Of a stretch of 64,000 bases of DNA, positions 2,289 through 41,115 are shown one piece after another. Origin of the DNA: Acidovorax defluvii (lineage in GTDB: Bacteria; Pseudomonadota; Gammaproteobacteria; Burkholderiales; Burkholderiaceae_C). The translations under genes and the position numbers were made by a program. The DNA lies in the NCBI GenBank assembly GCA_003268905.1, contig QLTU01000004.1:1-64000 (forward strand). The letters are read 5' to 3'. The notes under the pieces are model-generated. The model did no database searches and had not been told where the DNA came from. It saw nothing but the letters and a program-made list of their open reading frames with translations. Numbering within the stretch: position 1 is the first letter of the stretch; every line of letters starts with the position of its first letter.

Positions 2289-3329
2289 TTAGCGCGAGAG
2301 CGCGCCTTGCGTGGCAGTGTCCAGACGGCCCGTGGCGGGAATGCCCTGGCCCTTCTGGAACTCGCGCAGCGCCTTGGCCGTGCGCGGGCCGGCCGATCCA
2401 TCGGGCGTGCCGACGTCGTAGCCGAGAGCGTTCAGGCGTTCTTGCGCCTCCCGCATGGACATGGCAGCACCGGCACGCGTCTGCGACGGTGCAGCAGCGC
2501 CATCCACGCCCAGTCGGCCACCACCGCCCAGGCCCTGGCCTTGCACGCTTTGCGCCTTGTAGTTGCGCAGCGCGATGACCATCTGGTTGTAGGCATCCAT
2601 GAACGCCGCCGTGAGCACCTTGCCCTGCGCGGTGTTCTGGTAGCCGCCGATGGCACCGCCAGCGGTGGCGCCAAACAACCCGCCAAAGCCGGCGAAGTCG
2701 CTCTTGGAAGCGCTGCCTTCAGAGGCCGACACCTGCACACCCGAGCGGTTGTCCACCAGCGTCAGCATGGCGCTGGCTTCCCGCGTCTTGAGGCCGCCCC
2801 CAATGGCGGCCACGACGGCACCACCACGGCCGCCCAGCAGGCCACCCAGCGCACCGCCAATACTGCCGGCATCGCTGTTGGAGAAGATGATTTCAGGCGA
2901 GAGGCCGTAGTCGGACGCGACCATCTGGCCCCGGCCGAAATTGCTGCCGCCGCGCATTTCACCCGAGCCCATGAGCTGGCGCTCGCGGTCCATCGCGCGC
3001 ATGCCCGCCGCACCGCGTTCAACCACAACGAAGCAGTTGGATTGCTGGATCAGCAGTCGCAGCAGGTTGGAAGTGGGTGGCAACTTGTATTCGTTGCGCA
3101 AAATGGTGTACCAGCCCGCATCCTGGTTTTCAACCAGCGACACGGTTCCCAGGGGGCTGGAGCATTTTTGCAACTGCGAGCTCTCGTTGGCTGCCGTTGC
3201 GCCGCCAGCAGCACCTGTGGCCACCGTCTTCGCATCGGGACTGCCCATGCGCATGTTGGTGGTTTCGCAGCCTGTCAGCAGCACGGCAGCACATGCAGCC
3301 GCCAGCAACGGCAGTGTCTTTTTGGACAT
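2289..3329 (-). CDS. lipoprotein with CsgG-like domain and C-terminal peptidoglycan-binding domain
   Basis: This is a 346-residue predicted outer-membrane lipoprotein. The start at 3329 gives MSKKTLPLLAAACAAVLLTGC, a signal peptide with lipobox LTGC; an AGAGGA ribosome site lies just upstream. Residues about 60-270 resemble CsgG/curli-assembly type proteins (CFVVVERG, glycine-rich middle). The last 60 residues form a peptidoglycan-binding helical repeat (AQERLNALGYDVGTPDG, then ALREFQKGQG). It probably links an envelope complex to the cell wall. No curli genes are nearby, so the CsgG name describes the fold only. It is the cargo of the second flavin reductase / methyltransferase pair. Confidence 0.75.
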   Translation of the reverse strand: MSKKTLPLLAAACAAVLLTGCETTNMRMGSPDAKTVATGAAGGATAANESSQLQKCSSPLGTVSLVENQDAGWYTILRNEYKLPPTSNLLRLLIQQSNCFVVVERGAAGMRAMDRERQLMGSGEMRGGSNFGRGQMVASDYGLSPEIIFSNSDAGSIGGALGGLLGGRGGAVVAAIGGGLKTREASAMLTLVDNRSGVQVSASEGSASKSDFAGFGGLFGATAGGAIGGYQNTAQGKVLTAAFMDAYNQMVIALRNYKAQSVQGQGLGGGGRLGVDGAAAPSQTRAGAAMSMREAQERLNALGYDVGTPDGSAGPRTAKALREFQKGQGIPATGRLDTATQGALSR

Positions 3330-8062: not shown

Positions 8063-8743
8063 TCAGGCGGGCTTCATCCAGACAATGCAGCGCTCGGCAT
8101 CCAGCCCCGGAACGGTGAGCTGTTCCACGTGAAACACCTGCACTTCGGCGGGCAAGGCGGCGATTTCGTCTGCGGGGTGCTTGCCTTTCATGGCCAGCCA
8201 GACCCCGTGCGGCATGGCCAGCGCACTCTGGGACCAGGTCACAAAATCGGGCAACGAGGCAAACGCGCGGCAGCTGATGATGTCAAACGGCGCCGTCAAT
8301 GCCTCAACCCGTGCGTGCACGCCATGCAGGTTGCGCAGTTTCAGCGCCACCGCCGCCTGCTGGATGAATGCAGCCTTCTTGCCCACGGTATCGACACAGC
8401 TCACATCGACCTCCGGGCAGCAGATGGCAAACACCACGCCAGGCAATCCACCGCCCGAGCCTACGTCAAGCAGGCGCACTGCCCCCCCGCCCTCGCCAGT
8501 CTGCGCAGCCACATGGCGGCGCAGGGGCCCCACCGCTGCAAGGCTGTCGAGCAGATGGTGGGTGAGCATCTCCTGCGGGTCCCGCACGGCCGTGAGGTTG
8601 TAGACCTTGTTCCACTTTTGCAGCAGGGACAGAAACTCGAGCAACTGGGTGATTTGTGCCTCGGTCAGACCCAGGGCCAGGGTGCCTGCACCCGCCTGCA
8701 GCTTCGTGCGAAGCGCGTCGTTGTGGACCGCTGCTGCCGTCAT
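8063..8743 (-). CDS. rsmG: 16S rRNA (guanine527-N7)-methyltransferase RsmG
   Basis: 226 residues. It methylates G527 of 16S rRNA (the GidB family). The SAM loop [12 protein letters not shown] is at about 91-102, and the family segment [16 protein letters not shown] is at 41-56. The start overlaps the mnmG stop by four bases (ATGA). A near-perfect parS site at 8121-8136 lies inside the gene and encodes VFHVEQ. Confidence 0.97.
8121..8136. promoter_or_regulatory. parS-like site (one mismatch)
   Basis: TGTTCCACGTGAAACA differs from the ParB target TGTTTCACGTGAAACA at one base. It lies inside rsmG. Confidence 0.75.
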
Positions 8744-10737
8744 GCCACCACCTGCCCTTCGGCCGTGGCAGGCAAAGCCGGGGCCACCGCAAACTCCTTG
8801 AACCCGCCCTTCTTCAAATGCACCATCAGCAACGAGATAGCTGCCGGCGTAATGCCCGTGATGCGCGAGGCATGGCCCAGGGTTTCGGGCCGGTGGCGGC
8901 TGAGCACCTGGCGGGCCTCTATGCTCAGAGCCGTCACCTGCATGTAGTCCAGGTCTGGGGGCAGGCGCAACTTTTCGAAATGCGCGGCGCGCTCCACCTC
9001 GCCTTTTTGCCGGTCGATGTAGCCCGAATACTTGGCGGCAATCTCCACCTGCTCCACCACGGGCACGCTCAGCTCTCCCAACGTTTCACGTGAAACATCG
9101 GCCGAAGCGTACTTGCCGCCGTCCATCGACATCAGGTTGGCGTAGTTCACGTCGGGGCGGCGCAGCAGCTCGAACAGGTTGTACTCATGCTCGATGCTCT
9201 TGCCCAGCACCCGCTCCGACTCGGCCGCAGGCAGGTTGCGCGGGTTCACCCAGGTGGCTTTGAGGCGCTCTGTTTCACGTGAAACGGCATCGCGTTTGCG
9301 GCTGAAAGACTCCCAGCGCGCATCGTCCACCAAGCCCATGCGGCGCCCGGCTTCCGTCAGGCGCATATCGGCGTTGTCCTCGCGCAGTTGCAGGCGAAAC
9401 TCGGCCCGGCTGGTGAACATGCGGTAAGGCTCGGTCACGCCCTTGGTGATGAGGTCATCCACCAACACGCCCAGGTAGGCCTCGTCGCGGCCGGGCAACC
9501 AGGGCGCCTCGCCCCGGCACTGCAGCGCAGCGTTGAGCCCGGCGAACAATCCCTGCGCCGCCGCCTCTTCGTAGCCCGTGGTGCCGTTGATCTGCCCGGC
9601 AAAAAACAGACCCTGAATCTGCCGCGTCTCGAAGCTGCCTTTCAGCGCGCGCGGGTCAAAGTAGTCGTATTCGATGGCGTAGCCGGGGCGAAGGATGTGC
9701 GCGTTCTCCAGCCCCGGCATGCTGCGCACCAGCTCGTACTGGATGTCGAACGGCAGGCTGGTGGAGATGCCGTTGGGGTAAAACTCGTGCGTGGTCAGCC
9801 CCTCGGGCTCCAGAAAAATCTGGTGGCTGTCCTTGTCGGCAAAGCGGTTGATCTTGTCCTCTACGCTCGGGCAGTAGCGCGGGCCCACGCCCTCGATCTT
9901 TCCGGTGAACATGGGGCTGCGGTCAAAGCCGCTGCGGATGATGTCGTGCGTGCGCTCGTTGGTGTGGGTGATCCAGCAGGGCATTTGCTTGGGGTGCATG
10001 GCCGCACCACCGTACGCATGGGCCATGAAGCTGAACACGGGCACCGTGCCCTCGTTCACACCGCCCGGCATGCCGTCACCGGGCTGCTCGGTGCATTTCG
10101 AAAAATCGATGCTGCGCCCATCCAGCCGGGGTGGTGTACCGGTCTTCAGGCGGCCCTGCGGCAGTTGCAATTCCTTGAGCCGTGCCGACAGCGACACCGC
10201 TGGTGGGTCGCCCGCCCGGCCAGCAGCGTAGTTGTTCAGCCCCACATGGATCTTGCCGTCCAGAAAAGTCCCGGCCGTCAGCACCACCGTGCGGCTGCGA
10301 AATTGGATGCCCACCTGCGTGACGGCGCCCACCACGCGGTCGCCCTCCACCATCAGGTCGTCCACCGCCTGCTGAAACAGCCACAGGTTGGGCTGGTTCT
10401 CCAGCATGCGGCGGATGGCGGCCTTGTACAGAATGCGGTCGGCCTGCGCGCGCGTGGCCCGCACGGCGGGGCCCTTGCTGCTGTTGAGAATGCGGAACTG
10501 GATGCCGCCCTCGTCCGTGGCCAGCGCCATGGCTCCGCCCAGCGCGTCCACCTCTTTCACCAAGTGCCCCTTGCCGATGCCGCCAATGCTGGGGTTGCAG
10601 CTCATCTGCCCCAGTGTCTCGATGTTGTGGGTCAGCAGCAGGGTTCTTTGCCCTAAGCGCGCAGCGGCCAGCGCGGCCTCGGTGCCGGCATGGCCTCCGC
10701 CGACAACGATGACATCAAATTCCTGGGGATACAACAT
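8740..10737 (-). CDS. mnmG: tRNA uridine-5-carboxymethylaminomethyl modification enzyme MnmG
   Basis: 665 residues from ATG at 10737. With MnmE it makes the cmnm5 modification of the wobble uridine in tRNAs. The FAD-binding Rossmann motif [12 protein letters not shown] is at 11-22, followed by the family blocks [14 protein letters not shown] and RADRILY-type segments. The C-terminus carries the MnmE- and tRNA-binding helices ([17 protein letters not shown]). Two exact parS cores are embedded in the gene and read as DVSRET and AVSRET. It is the first gene of the minus-strand partition block. Confidence 0.97.
9082..9097. promoter_or_regulatory. parS site inside mnmG
   Basis: CGTTTCACGTGAAACA holds the perfect palindromic core GTTTCACGTGAAAC at 9083-9096. 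Confidence 0.9.
9271..9286. promoter_or_regulatory. parS site inside mnmG
   Basis: TGTTTCACGTGAAACG holds the perfect GTTTCACGTGAAAC core at 9272-9285. Confidence 0.9.
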
Positions 10738-10964
10738 CGGACAACTCCGGGGCCACCGGCCCATAACGACACACACCACACACACCACACGGGCCAAATT
10801 CTGGCCAAACACCCACCGAGCACCCGCCGCAGCGGCCCGCCCCGCCTGCCAGCCCTGAGGCCCCGCTGCGGGAAACCCGCAATTTTCCCACCTTTGTCTG
10901 GCGCACGTCGCCGCCGCTGCAGACAACCTTTGCAGCACACCTGCACTGCGCGCCTGGGGCAGAC

Positions 10965-10980
10965 CGTTTCACGTGAAACA
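10965..10980. promoter_or_regulatory. parS site upstream of mnmG
   Basis: CGTTTCACGTGAAACA lies about 230 bases upstream of the mnmG start, in the gap between the divergent mnmG and FMN reductase genes. The rest of that gap (10738-11102) shows no gene. Confidence 0.9.
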
Positions 10981-37877: not shown

Positions 37878-38933
37878 TCAGAACGGCGCTGAGTCGGGGT
37901 CGGTGTCCACTGGCGCTTCCCTGGGCCCGGTCACCACGCCACCGCCGGCACTTTTGCGCGCGGGTGCTGAAGGTGCTGAGGAAGGCGTCACCGGGGCTGC
38001 GGGCGCAGCGCCTGCGGCAACCGCCTGCGCTGCACTAACCACACCGCTCTCGGCCTCGCCGCCCAGCGCCTCGATCAGGTCGGGGATCAACTTCACCAGC
38101 TCGCCCGTGGCAATGGCCACGTCGGTGTCAAAGCCGCCATCGTCGGCCTTGGTGCCTTCGAACACGGTGTCCAGAAACGACACCTTCTTGATCTGCAGGC
38201 CTTCGGTCAGCATGAAGCTCACGCGGTCGTCCCAGGTCAGCGCCAGCTTGGTGGGCAGCTTGCCAGCGGCGATGTGGGCCTGCACCTCTTCGATGTCGAG
38301 CGGGTGGCGGGCATAGCGCACCACGGCCTTGGCTTCATCGGCGCTTTTCAGCTCGCACTCGCGGTCCACCGTGAAGCCCACGGGCGGCTCTTGCGTGCTC
38401 AGCCAGTGCGACATTGCGGCCTGCGGGCTGGTCTGGGTGTTGATAAGCGACACCGCCAGGCCCGGCAGCGATTCGACCAGCAGCGTCACCACCTCATCGG
38501 CGCGGCCTTGGGCTGAGGTGTCGAGCACCAGCAGGCGCGACGCGGTGTCGATCCACACCCACATCGAGCCCTGCTTGGTGAAGGCCATGGGCAGCAGGTC
38601 GAGCTTGGCCTCGTCTTTCAGCTCCTTGCTTTCCTTCTTGCCCGGCTTGCGGCCGGTTTCCTGCTCGATGCGCTCGGCCTTTTCCTTCACGCGGCGCGCC
38701 AGCACGCTGCCCGGCAGCACTTTGGACTCCACCATGAAGCGCAGGATCCACTGCCCGCCCACAGATTCGGCCAGCGGGCCATGCACATCACCGCGCGGGG
38801 GCACCCAGCCGAGCGACTTTTCCTGCGTGGCACCACATTCCAGAAAGGGCGCCTTGGCCAGCGCCTCTTCCACCTGCGTCAATTCCACCTGCCATTGCGG
38901 CGCAATGCGGTACACGATCATGTTCTTGAACAC
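37878..38933 (-). CDS. rdgC: recombination-associated protein RdgC
   Basis: 351 residues from GTG at 38933 (VFKNMIVYRIAPQW); ATG at 38921 lacks the conserved first residues, and AAAGG lies at the proper distance before the GTG. RdgC forms a ring around DNA and limits RecA loading. Markers: CGATQEKSLGWVPPRGD, PMAFTKQGSMWVWID, PVGFTVDRECELKS and LTWDDRVSFMLTEGLQIKK. An Ala/Pro-rich tail of about 50 residues is extra compared with the enterobacterial protein. Confidence 0.95.
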   Translation of the reverse strand: MFKNMIVYRIAPQWQVELTQVEEALAKAPFLECGATQEKSLGWVPPRGDVHGPLAESVGGQWILRFMVESKVLPGSVLARRVKEKAERIEQETGRKPGKKESKELKDEAKLDLLPMAFTKQGSMWVWIDTASRLLVLDTSAQGRADEVVTLLVESLPGLAVSLINTQTSPQAAMSHWLSTQEPPVGFTVDRECELKSADEAKAVVRYARHPLDIEEVQAHIAAGKLPTKLALTWDDRVSFMLTEGLQIKKVSFLDTVFEGTKADDGGFDTDVAIATGELVKLIPDLIEALGGEAESGVVSAAQAVAAGAAPAAPVTPSSAPSAPARKSAGGGVVTGPREAPVDTDPDSAPF

Positions 38934-39029
38934 GGACAACCTTTGTTTCTTCTGGCCATTTGCAGCCATTGCGGAGTACAGGCGACATTGTCGGGGGTCG
39001 GCTGGCCCGCCTGCGGGCACAACGGCTGG

Positions 39030-39822: not shown

Positions 39823-40100
39823 TTGTCCACACGGACAGCGCTCCCCCGAGCCCGGTGCCCACCAAAGCACCGGGCTTTTTTCATTGTGGACAAGCCTGGG
39901 GATAGTTTTGGCACAACTGGGCGGTTATCCACAGACCAACCGCAAAACCCAAAGTTGTTATCTGCCAGCATCCAAGTTCAGGGGGCCCTGCGCACATACT
40001 TTCAGGCAACGCAACTGCGCGCCACCATTCACAAAAATAACCTTGTCCACAAAAAAAGGCGCCCTCTACTACTACTGCTATTTATATATAGAACCATAGA
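39823..40100. other. replication-origin-like module A (DnaA boxes, GC clamp, DnaA-trio-like run, AT-rich run)
   Basis: DnaA-box-like sites: TTGTCCACA 39823-39831, TGTGGACAA 39885-39893 (reverse), the exact consensus TTATCCACA 39925-39933, and TTGTCCACA 40043-40051. Six bases after the last box comes GGCGCC (40058-40063), then CTACTACTACTGCT (40066-40079), then ATTTATATATAG (40080-40091). This order of box, GC clamp, trinucleotide run and AT-rich DNA is that of the bacterial basal unwinding system. A diverged second copy is at 40890-41115. No dnaA is in the window. Confidence 0.65.
39849..39881 (+). terminator. intrinsic terminator after the Spy-like gene
   Basis: GAGCCCGGTGC / GCACCGGGCT forms a strong stem over a short loop, followed by six T residues. 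It lies between the first two DnaA-like boxes. Confidence 0.88.
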
Positions 40101-40191
40101 AGAACAACCGAAACCTCCTTCGCGCCGCAGCCAACGCCTTGAATGGCAAAAAAAATGGGGGCACGGCCAGCCCAACCCACCGGAGAAGCCT

Positions 40192-40782
40192 GTGCACCTG
40201 GCAAGTTGTCTGAAAACCTGGGCACAGAGCGTCAAGCGTGACGGCATCACACTGTGGTTTGCCGCACGGCACCTGCAGGCACCCTGGTATGCCAAGGCGC
40301 TGGGCGTGTTGGTGGTGGCTTATGCCCTTTAGAGCCTGTTCAAGGTCTTTTTGGAGTCGCACAAGTACCCTGCCGGGATGGGATGCAAGGCGCGGAACGT
40401 AGTGGATAGCCCGGCTATCCACAAGCGCCGCAACGCCGCAGACCGCCCGGCAAGGCACTTGCCCGAAGGGTTGGAGTGAAATCGGGCGATTGCACTCCAA
40501 TGCGATCTCCAAAAAGACCTTGAACAGGCTCTAATCCCCATCGACCTGATCCCAGACTTCATCCCCGTGCTGGGTTGTGTGGACGACCTGCTCTTGCTTC
40601 CGGGGATGATCTGGCTGGCAATCCGGCTGATTCCGGCGCCGGTGCTGCAGCAATGCCGCGACCAGGCCGACCTGTGGATAAAAAGCAGCGGCGGCAAGCC
40701 CGCCAGCCGCATCGGCGCGGTGCTGGTGGTGGCCGTCTGGGTGGGCGCCGGCCTGGCGCTGTGGCAATGGCTCGCAGCCTGA
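40192..40782 (+). pseudogene. DUF1232 (YkvA-like) membrane protein gene split by a 204-bp insertion
   Basis: Codons 40192-40329 encode the N-terminal part (KRDGITLWFAARHLQAPWYAK ending in VAYAL); 40534-40782 encode the rest ([24 protein letters not shown], then a C-terminal helix). Removing 40330-40533 restores one frame of 128 residues that reads through the family signature [14 protein letters not shown]. The insertion brings a TAG at its first three bases, so the protein is broken. The start is uncertain: GTG at 40192 is the best in-frame choice. The function of DUF1232 is unknown. An extra DnaA box (TGTGGATAA, 40673-40681) lies inside. Confidence 0.85.
40330..40533. mobile_element. 204-bp MITE-like element with 27-bp perfect terminal inverted repeats
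   Basis: Bases 40330-40356 (starting TAGAGCCTGTTCAAGGTC) are the exact reverse complement of 40507-40533. The match continues with TCGC against ATCGC, one base offset. The element carries no gene and an internal palindrome GTGGATAGCC / GGCTATCCAC (40401-40421), whose arm resembles a DnaA box. No target duplication is evident. It would need a transposase supplied from elsewhere. Confidence 0.88.
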
Positions 40783-40799
40783 AAGCCATCAAGATCTGA

Positions 40800-40865
40800 T
40801 AGACGCTATTAAATAAATAGCTTATAGCGCTTATTGGCATTGCGCTACAGGCCGATTTGACCCAT
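40800..40865 (+). repeat. dispersed intergenic repeat (copy 9)
   Basis: AATAGCTTATAGCGCTTATT and CATTGCGCTACAGGCC match the family. It lies between the DUF1232 gene and origin-like module B. Confidence 0.82.
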
Positions 40866-40889
40866 ATTTTCCCGTCCACCACTGCCCGT

Positions 40890-41115
40890 GCACAACACTG
40901 GGGATAGTTTTGGCACAACCGGGCGGTTATCCACAGAAAACCGACGATGGACCGTTTTATCCCAGTCGGGCAGACAGCGGCAGCCGGGCCGGGTCCACAG
41001 GGTTGGGTGTGGCGCAAGTGGCTGTCAGGACTGGGCAAAAGACACTTGTCCACAGAAACAGGCGCCTTCTACTACTACGACTATGTATTTATAGAAACCT
41101 TTAATTAATAACAAC
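40890..41115. other. replication-origin-like module B
   Basis: It repeats the order of module A. GGGATAGTTTTGGCACAAC is shared with module A, then the exact TTATCCACA (40927-40935), TTGTCCACA (41046-41054), six bases, GGCGCC (41061-41066), CTACTACTACGACT (41069-41082), and an AT-rich run to about 41112. The distance between the two boxes is 110 bases here and 109 in module A, while the DNA between them has diverged. Conservation of only the boxes, clamp and trinucleotide run argues for function. Confidence 0.65.

Follow-up and report, generated by a model that had tools for sequence, protein, structure and literature searches.

Two tandem DnaA-box/DnaA-trio modules at a putative chromosomal replication origin of Acidovorax located away from dnaA

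The window (the whole stretch of DNA analysed, the first 64,000 nucleotides of contig QLTU01000004.1 of Acidovorax defluvii) carries parB, parA, gidB and gidA at 4.3-10.9 kb. Near these genes we found four parS-like sites at 8121-10980, each with one mismatch, in line with the parS sites noted in the original prediction about 30 kb from the candidate origin. At the predicted locus, two diverged copies of one unit of about 185 bp are present on the plus strand, module A at 39922-40105 and module B at 40924-41106. The rdgC gene (37878-39020, minus strand) lies about 0.9 kb upstream of module A, with an LTXXQ-family gene in between. Domains of dnaA were located at 72.3-73.2 kb of the same contig, which is 31-32 kb from the modules. 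When the complete 226-kb contig was searched with a profile of the module, no extra copy was detected near dnaA, save an 8.5-bit match within dnaA itself.

Both modules exhibit the same order of elements: a DnaA box, a second box, a 14-bp spacer, a DnaA-trio run of CTA triplets and an AT-rich tail. For module A (profile 137.1 bits, R1 E-value 1.7e-33; both models include this copy), box 1 (TTATCCACA) is located at 39925-39933, box 2 (TTGTCCACA) at 40043-40051 and the trio run with the AT-rich unwinding tail at 40066-40093. The corresponding elements of module B (profile 151.7 bits, R1 E-value 1.7e-35; this copy is likewise included in both models) were found at 40927-40935, 41046-41054 and 41069-41096, and all of them are on the plus strand. 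R1 is a sequence-only profile prepared from 64 of 89 module copies, with near-duplicates dropped by eye. Thus, two diverged copies with a preserved element order are present as predicted. The second box had been placed some 110 bases after the first; the true start-to-start distance is 118 bp in module A and 119 bp in module B. On the 3′ side of box 2, both modules carry six bases, GGCGCC and then CTACTACTAC. The two copies share a 50-nt block with 92% identity and a 60-nt block with 83% identity at an offset of 1002-1003 bp. Upstream of module A there are two more TTGTCCACA boxes, one on the plus strand (39823-39831), which was not seen there in the other genus loci listed, and one on the minus strand (39885-39893), 40 bp upstream of box 1.

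The clustering of these elements is far from random. All seven occurrences of TTNTCCACA in the window fall inside 39823-41054, with 0.86 expected and none of 100 shuffles reaching seven, and the entire 226-kb contig contains 11 occurrences, 7 of which lie at the module region. The pattern TTRTCCACA-N6-GGCGCC occurs without mismatches only at modules A and B in the 4.1-Mb genome. When all 50-mers of the 64-kb window were ranked by duplex stability (nearest-neighbour energies), the least stable one started at 41069 in the tail of module B and the third least stable one at 40064 in module A. Thus, an easily melted AT-rich region adjoins the trios in both modules. A survey of the basal unwinding system (BUS), which covered the predicted oriC of the primary chromosome per species, describes that DnaA on a box engages at least three 3′-NAN-5′ trios within 16 bp, most commonly 3′-GAT-5′, and thereby separates the strands (PMC8287927). 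Both Acidovorax modules share with this system the box, the position of the trios within 16 bp and the number of at least three trios (PMC8287927), since box 2 is followed by CTA CTA CTA after 14 bp.

The DNA between the modules is less orderly. The original prediction placed one gene there and, indeed, an open frame at 40480-40779 matches DUF1232 (PF06803, E-value 2e-7), but this gene is interrupted and the start of the frame lies within the interrupting sequence. The latter is a MITE-like element of 206 bp (40329-40534, no strand assigned) with perfect inverted ends of 28 nt, of which the genome contains two more copies, one split into two pieces on contig C6 (96%) and one incomplete on contig C14 (86%). 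The 3′ part of the interrupted gene (40535-40782, plus strand) carries a reverse TTATCCACA at 40673 and is not conserved between the modules. Of 44 genus genomes, 6 carry an intervening frame with the D[LVIF]IPD motif of this gene and the other 38 do not, and we therefore dropped the idea that the gene is part of the origin system. A plasmid source of the modules was also rejected because a search of 72,556 plasmids with module B at blastn sensitivity gave no match.

At the DNA level, module B matched all 47 Acidovorax genomes, the window's own included. In 44 of them, both modules were present on the same strand with a box spacing of 118 or 119 bp in module A and 119 bp in module B, and box 2 of A was separated from box 1 of B by 346-884 bp in each of these 44. 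As for the three exceptions, the contig of G131 begins within module B; that of G100 stops 627 bp beyond module A and yielded no B, which may either be lost to the contig end or be absent; and G106 carries a single B-like module. The trio run starts 14 bp past box 2 in 44/44 genomes for either module, that is in 88 of 88 modules. The commonest run was CTACTACTACTGCTA for module A (32/44) and CTACTACTACGACTA for module B (35/44). Their fourth triplets differ: CTG in A keeps the 3′-NAN-5′ pattern, whereas CGA in B breaks it. A reverse box about 40 bp upstream was observed in 38 of 44 A copies but in none of the 44 B copies.

Comparing pairwise column identities within the genus, we obtained values of 0.97-0.995 for the boxes (A: 0.99 for box 1 in 45 copies and 0.995 for box 2; B: 0.966 for box 1 in 44 copies and 0.99 for box 2). 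These values are high partly by construction, since the copies were selected by a near-fixed box pattern that permitted few changes. The position of the trio was no selection criterion, and the trio reached 0.97 in both A and B. For trio and tail together, identities of 0.89 and 0.91 were calculated for the two modules. The remaining parts were less constrained (0.64-0.65 between the boxes, 0.53-0.61 in the box-trio spacer, 0.29-0.34 in 20 columns of upstream flank). A lack of conservation of boxes and trio run among relatives had been named as a refuting condition of the prediction; both are conserved. With near-invariant boxes and trios in both, the two copies look similarly constrained at the sequence level, each keeping its own signature. 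In contrast, GGCGCC, which is present in both modules of the window as predicted, is not a conserved part: it lies in the variable spacer, and exact TTGTCCACA-N6-GGCGCC was found in 5 of 100 family genomes, the window's own among them. We therefore rejected it as a defining element.

In the family, which we take to be Comamonadaceae, R1 gave 121 matches in 92 of 100 genomes, a count that includes G000 and G085, both of which had contributed rows to R1. One match was found in 66 of these genomes and two or three in 26. Of the single matches, 40 lie within 2 kb of dnaA and 26 elsewhere, half of the latter on the same contig and half (13) on another one. The spacer between dnaA and dnaN is filled by the module in G080, which belongs to a genus with single modules. 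For genomes with multiple matches, dnaA was found in 25 of 26; the matches are within 2 kb of it in one genome and elsewhere in 24 (15 with a copy on the contig of dnaA, 9 on another contig). Doubling is thus associated with distance from dnaA (Fisher p 6e-7), although this calculation ignores kinship and location on another contig is weaker evidence of distance. Copies that share a contig are 0.3 to about 20 kb apart and mostly in tandem, and opposite-strand copies were seen in G044 and in Limnohabitans 2KL-1. In the sole case of multiple matches at dnaA (G062, locus L241, C2:294500-300500), the two modules start 311 and 627 bp from the start of the C-terminal domain. An exception in spacing is G052 with matches at C1:67274, C1:166395 and C43:29613, two of which are 99 kb apart while the third is 6 kb from dnaA; this pattern possibly reflects widely spread origins or a mixed assembly.

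Of 20 stretches of 20 kb that surround a single match, 10 lay at a distance from dnaA, and no second copy was detected in these 10. Rescoring of 3 genus and 37 family genomes (40 in total) with relaxed filters gave two weak extra matches, in G070 and G076 (E-values 0.004-0.005), and G082, which has its single match at dnaA, showed a weak second match of 17.6 bits; none of these was counted.

Strand skew points to the modules in some genomes and not in others. In a 240-kb stretch of G125, a complete Acidovorax genome, cumulative GC skew reaches its minimum at 86,346, with the A boxes (86,130 and 86,248) on one side and the B boxes (86,609 and 86,728) on the other, and dnaA is at 153 kb. Its keto skew was positive in 9 of 10 samples between 400 and 2,650 kb and negative in 9 of 10 samples between 2,900 and 4,900 kb. 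A 200-kb stretch of G018, a member of another genus, had its GC minimum at 2,510,048, 2.6 kb from a module (modules at 2,495,790 and 2,507,247) and 117 kb from dnaA (2,627,418); the keto minimum (2,524,966) is about 18 kb past the nearest module. In G004, which represents a third genus, the GC minimum of a 200-kb stretch (39,888) is 0.2 kb from the first of three modules (40,058, 49,256 and 69,327) and 39 kb from dnaA (1.1 kb), and the keto minimum falls about 22.6 kb before the start of the contig, some 62 kb from the nearest module. A GC-skew plot had been proposed as a check of the prediction; its minimum coincides with, or lies within 3 kb of, a module rather than dnaA in these three genomes, but on the window's own contig it lies elsewhere (130,824, with a local dip at 40 kb), while the keto-amino minimum of that contig is at 41,201. 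Skew does not tell A from B.

The single B-like module of G106 is 1.13 Mb from dnaA, and no skew minimum was present in the 200 kb around it. Across 48 stretches, a clear two-arm skew was not apparent in this genome. Fitting two breakpoints reduced the residual from 992 to 875 at best and placed the origin near 720 kb, which coincides with neither the module nor dnaA. As a test of where the origin lies, G106 speaks firmly neither for nor against the modules. Directly upstream of its module, where module A would be expected, an inverted-repeat stretch was observed (L068, G106:C2:1132000-1138000, about 2900-3150).

Taken together, anatomy, conservation, position relative to dnaA, skew in three genomes and distribution make it highly probable that this region is the chromosomal oriC of an Acidovorax species, located 31-32 kb from dnaA and consisting of two complete, tandem, anciently duplicated initiation modules. 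Of the original prediction, the doubled BUS-type origin away from dnaA is therefore supported. DnaA would bind the box beside the spacer, aided by the box 118 or 119 bp upstream, and would spread onto the 3′-GAT-5′ repeats of one strand; the AT-rich tail would then open and the helicase would be loaded there. DnaA binding, unwinding, helicase loading and the competence of both modules to start replication are presumed. A further proposal, which we put forward tentatively, is that members of this lineage as a rule possess, and initiate from, two neighbouring DnaA origins on a single chromosome, each of them complete and competent on its own. These would have been kept since before the split of Acidovorax and Paracidovorax. 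The family would have gained comparable doublings repeatedly, chiefly in genomes whose oriC is away from dnaA, with two or three modules spaced 0.3 to about 20 kb.

Competence of both modules is challenged by the possibility that one of them, probably B, does the work, while the other once served as an origin or has been retained as a DnaA-binding regulator through which DnaA is titrated or recycled. In E. coli, datA and DARS are DnaA-binding regulators of this kind. The two modules are not equivalent, because the upstream reverse box (38/44 versus 0/44) belongs to A alone; the fourth triplet breaks the trio pattern in B and not in A, and the only module of G106 falls among B copies in the module tree. 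Titration, however, needs boxes and not a trio run with an AT-rich tail at a fixed 14 bp, and both of these are near invariant in A and in B. We consider this division of labour conceivable, but would not call it probable. Alternatively, A and B might form one bipartite origin, in which DnaA complexes on both modules cooperate via a DNA loop and neither is sufficient alone. Their common strand and the gap of 346-884 bp in all 44 genomes fit such cooperation, as does the spacer gene that separates the subregions of the bipartite origins described (PMC4285127). Still, the unwinding element of those origins is in one subregion (PMC4285127) and is found in both here, most of the matched family genomes (66 of 92) have one match only, and elsewhere in the family the copies are 2-11 kb apart or on opposite strands. 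Cooperation of this type appears unlikely.

That the locus is no origin at all, being made up of conserved DnaA-controlled promoters or of boxes clustered by chance, is very improbable. DnaA-regulated transcription would be compatible with sequence-only data, and GC skew does not indicate the modules on the window's own contig or in G106. Chance is ruled out by the shuffles, the genome-wide rarity of the pattern and the conservation in 44 of 47 genus genomes, and a role in transcription has to face the fact that the DUF1232 motif lies between the modules in just 6/44. The GC-skew minimum at the modules in stretches of three genomes and the position of the single homologue of G080 in the dnaA-dnaN spacer also speak for a chromosomal oriC.

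Like the Acidovorax modules, the oriC of E. coli lies near the gid genes and tens of kb away from dnaA; it has, however, one unwinding element and a box layout unlike that of the modules. The bipartite origins of B. subtilis and H. pylori resemble the Acidovorax locus in that a gene or spacer separates two DnaA-box regions, but as described in that literature the spacer is usually dnaA and one half carries the unwinding element (PMC4285127). At the locus of the window, both halves have an unwinding module and are recognisable duplicates, a disrupted DUF1232 gene forms the spacer, and the distance to dnaA is 31-32 kb. The label "bipartite" in the sense of these origins, which had been considered in the original prediction, is thus not supported because both halves carry an unwinding module. 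The BUS survey took the predicted oriC of the primary chromosome per species (PMC8287927), whereas Acidovorax has two complete BUS units in tandem on one chromosome. Gao (2015) treats one origin as the norm and states that evidence for the use of two origins on a chromosome is lacking (PMC4403523). A table in that article gives four representative putative double oriCs, among them Ralstonia pickettii 12D of the same order (regions about 0.29 Mb apart) and none of this family (PMC4403523). These share with Acidovorax two origin-like regions per chromosome but not a genus-wide tandem. Another source notes DoriC sites that do not correspond to the true origin (PMC13342612). Among the titles and abstract starts of the literature matches listed, we found none on a doubled or dnaA-distant oriC in Comamonadaceae; subscription journals and preprints are thinly covered there, so this is no proof of absence.

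For the history of the modules, we calculated a tree of 141 of the 230 copies. The A and B copies of Acidovorax were recovered in separate parts of it. The A copies group with the first copies of Paracidovorax wautersii and oryzae, Acidovorax SUPP3334 and Leaf160 and with the second of three G003 copies. The B copies lie beside the second copies of those same genomes but do not form one clade, and under the midpoint root the B copies closest to that of the window stand apart. Copies pair by lineage in Hydrogenophaga (plus one G022 copy), G069 with Pseudorhodoferax, Aquabacterium, Limnohabitans and G012. This topology suggests one old doubling plus several separate ones, a reading that we treat as a lead in view of short sequences, many low support values and midpoint rooting. 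The single module in the dnaA-dnaN spacer may represent the older state of the family, the direction of change being deduced. Several lineages have a doubled oriC at a distance from dnaA, and the Acidovorax line has kept both copies.

The working rule for bacteria is one origin per chromosome, and the control of initiation once per cycle has been modelled on a single oriC. Here, the stretch is very probably a chromosome replication start with two full copies of the DNA-opening signal. A doubled origin in 44 of 47 genus genomes, next to one, two or three modules in other genera, constitutes a natural experiment. It raises the questions of whether initiation occurs at both copies, what prevents double firing and why distance from dnaA and doubling tend to occur together, and these can be tested in culturable species. 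Searches for oriC that are confined to the side of dnaA would miss it in many members of the family.

Among 100 genomes of the order, R1 matched 9, namely 3 of the family (the window's own included) and 6 of 97 from other families. In one other family of the order (f8), 33 of 40 genomes were matched, several with two or three clustered weak matches, but the strict box-trio pattern was present in just 2 of 12 loci, and for this reason we do not claim the same architecture for f8. At L293 (G246), L287 (G248) and L298 (G200), two or three weak matches cluster within about 1-1.5 kb, and such clusters suggest that repeated unwinding modules may be wider in Burkholderiales.
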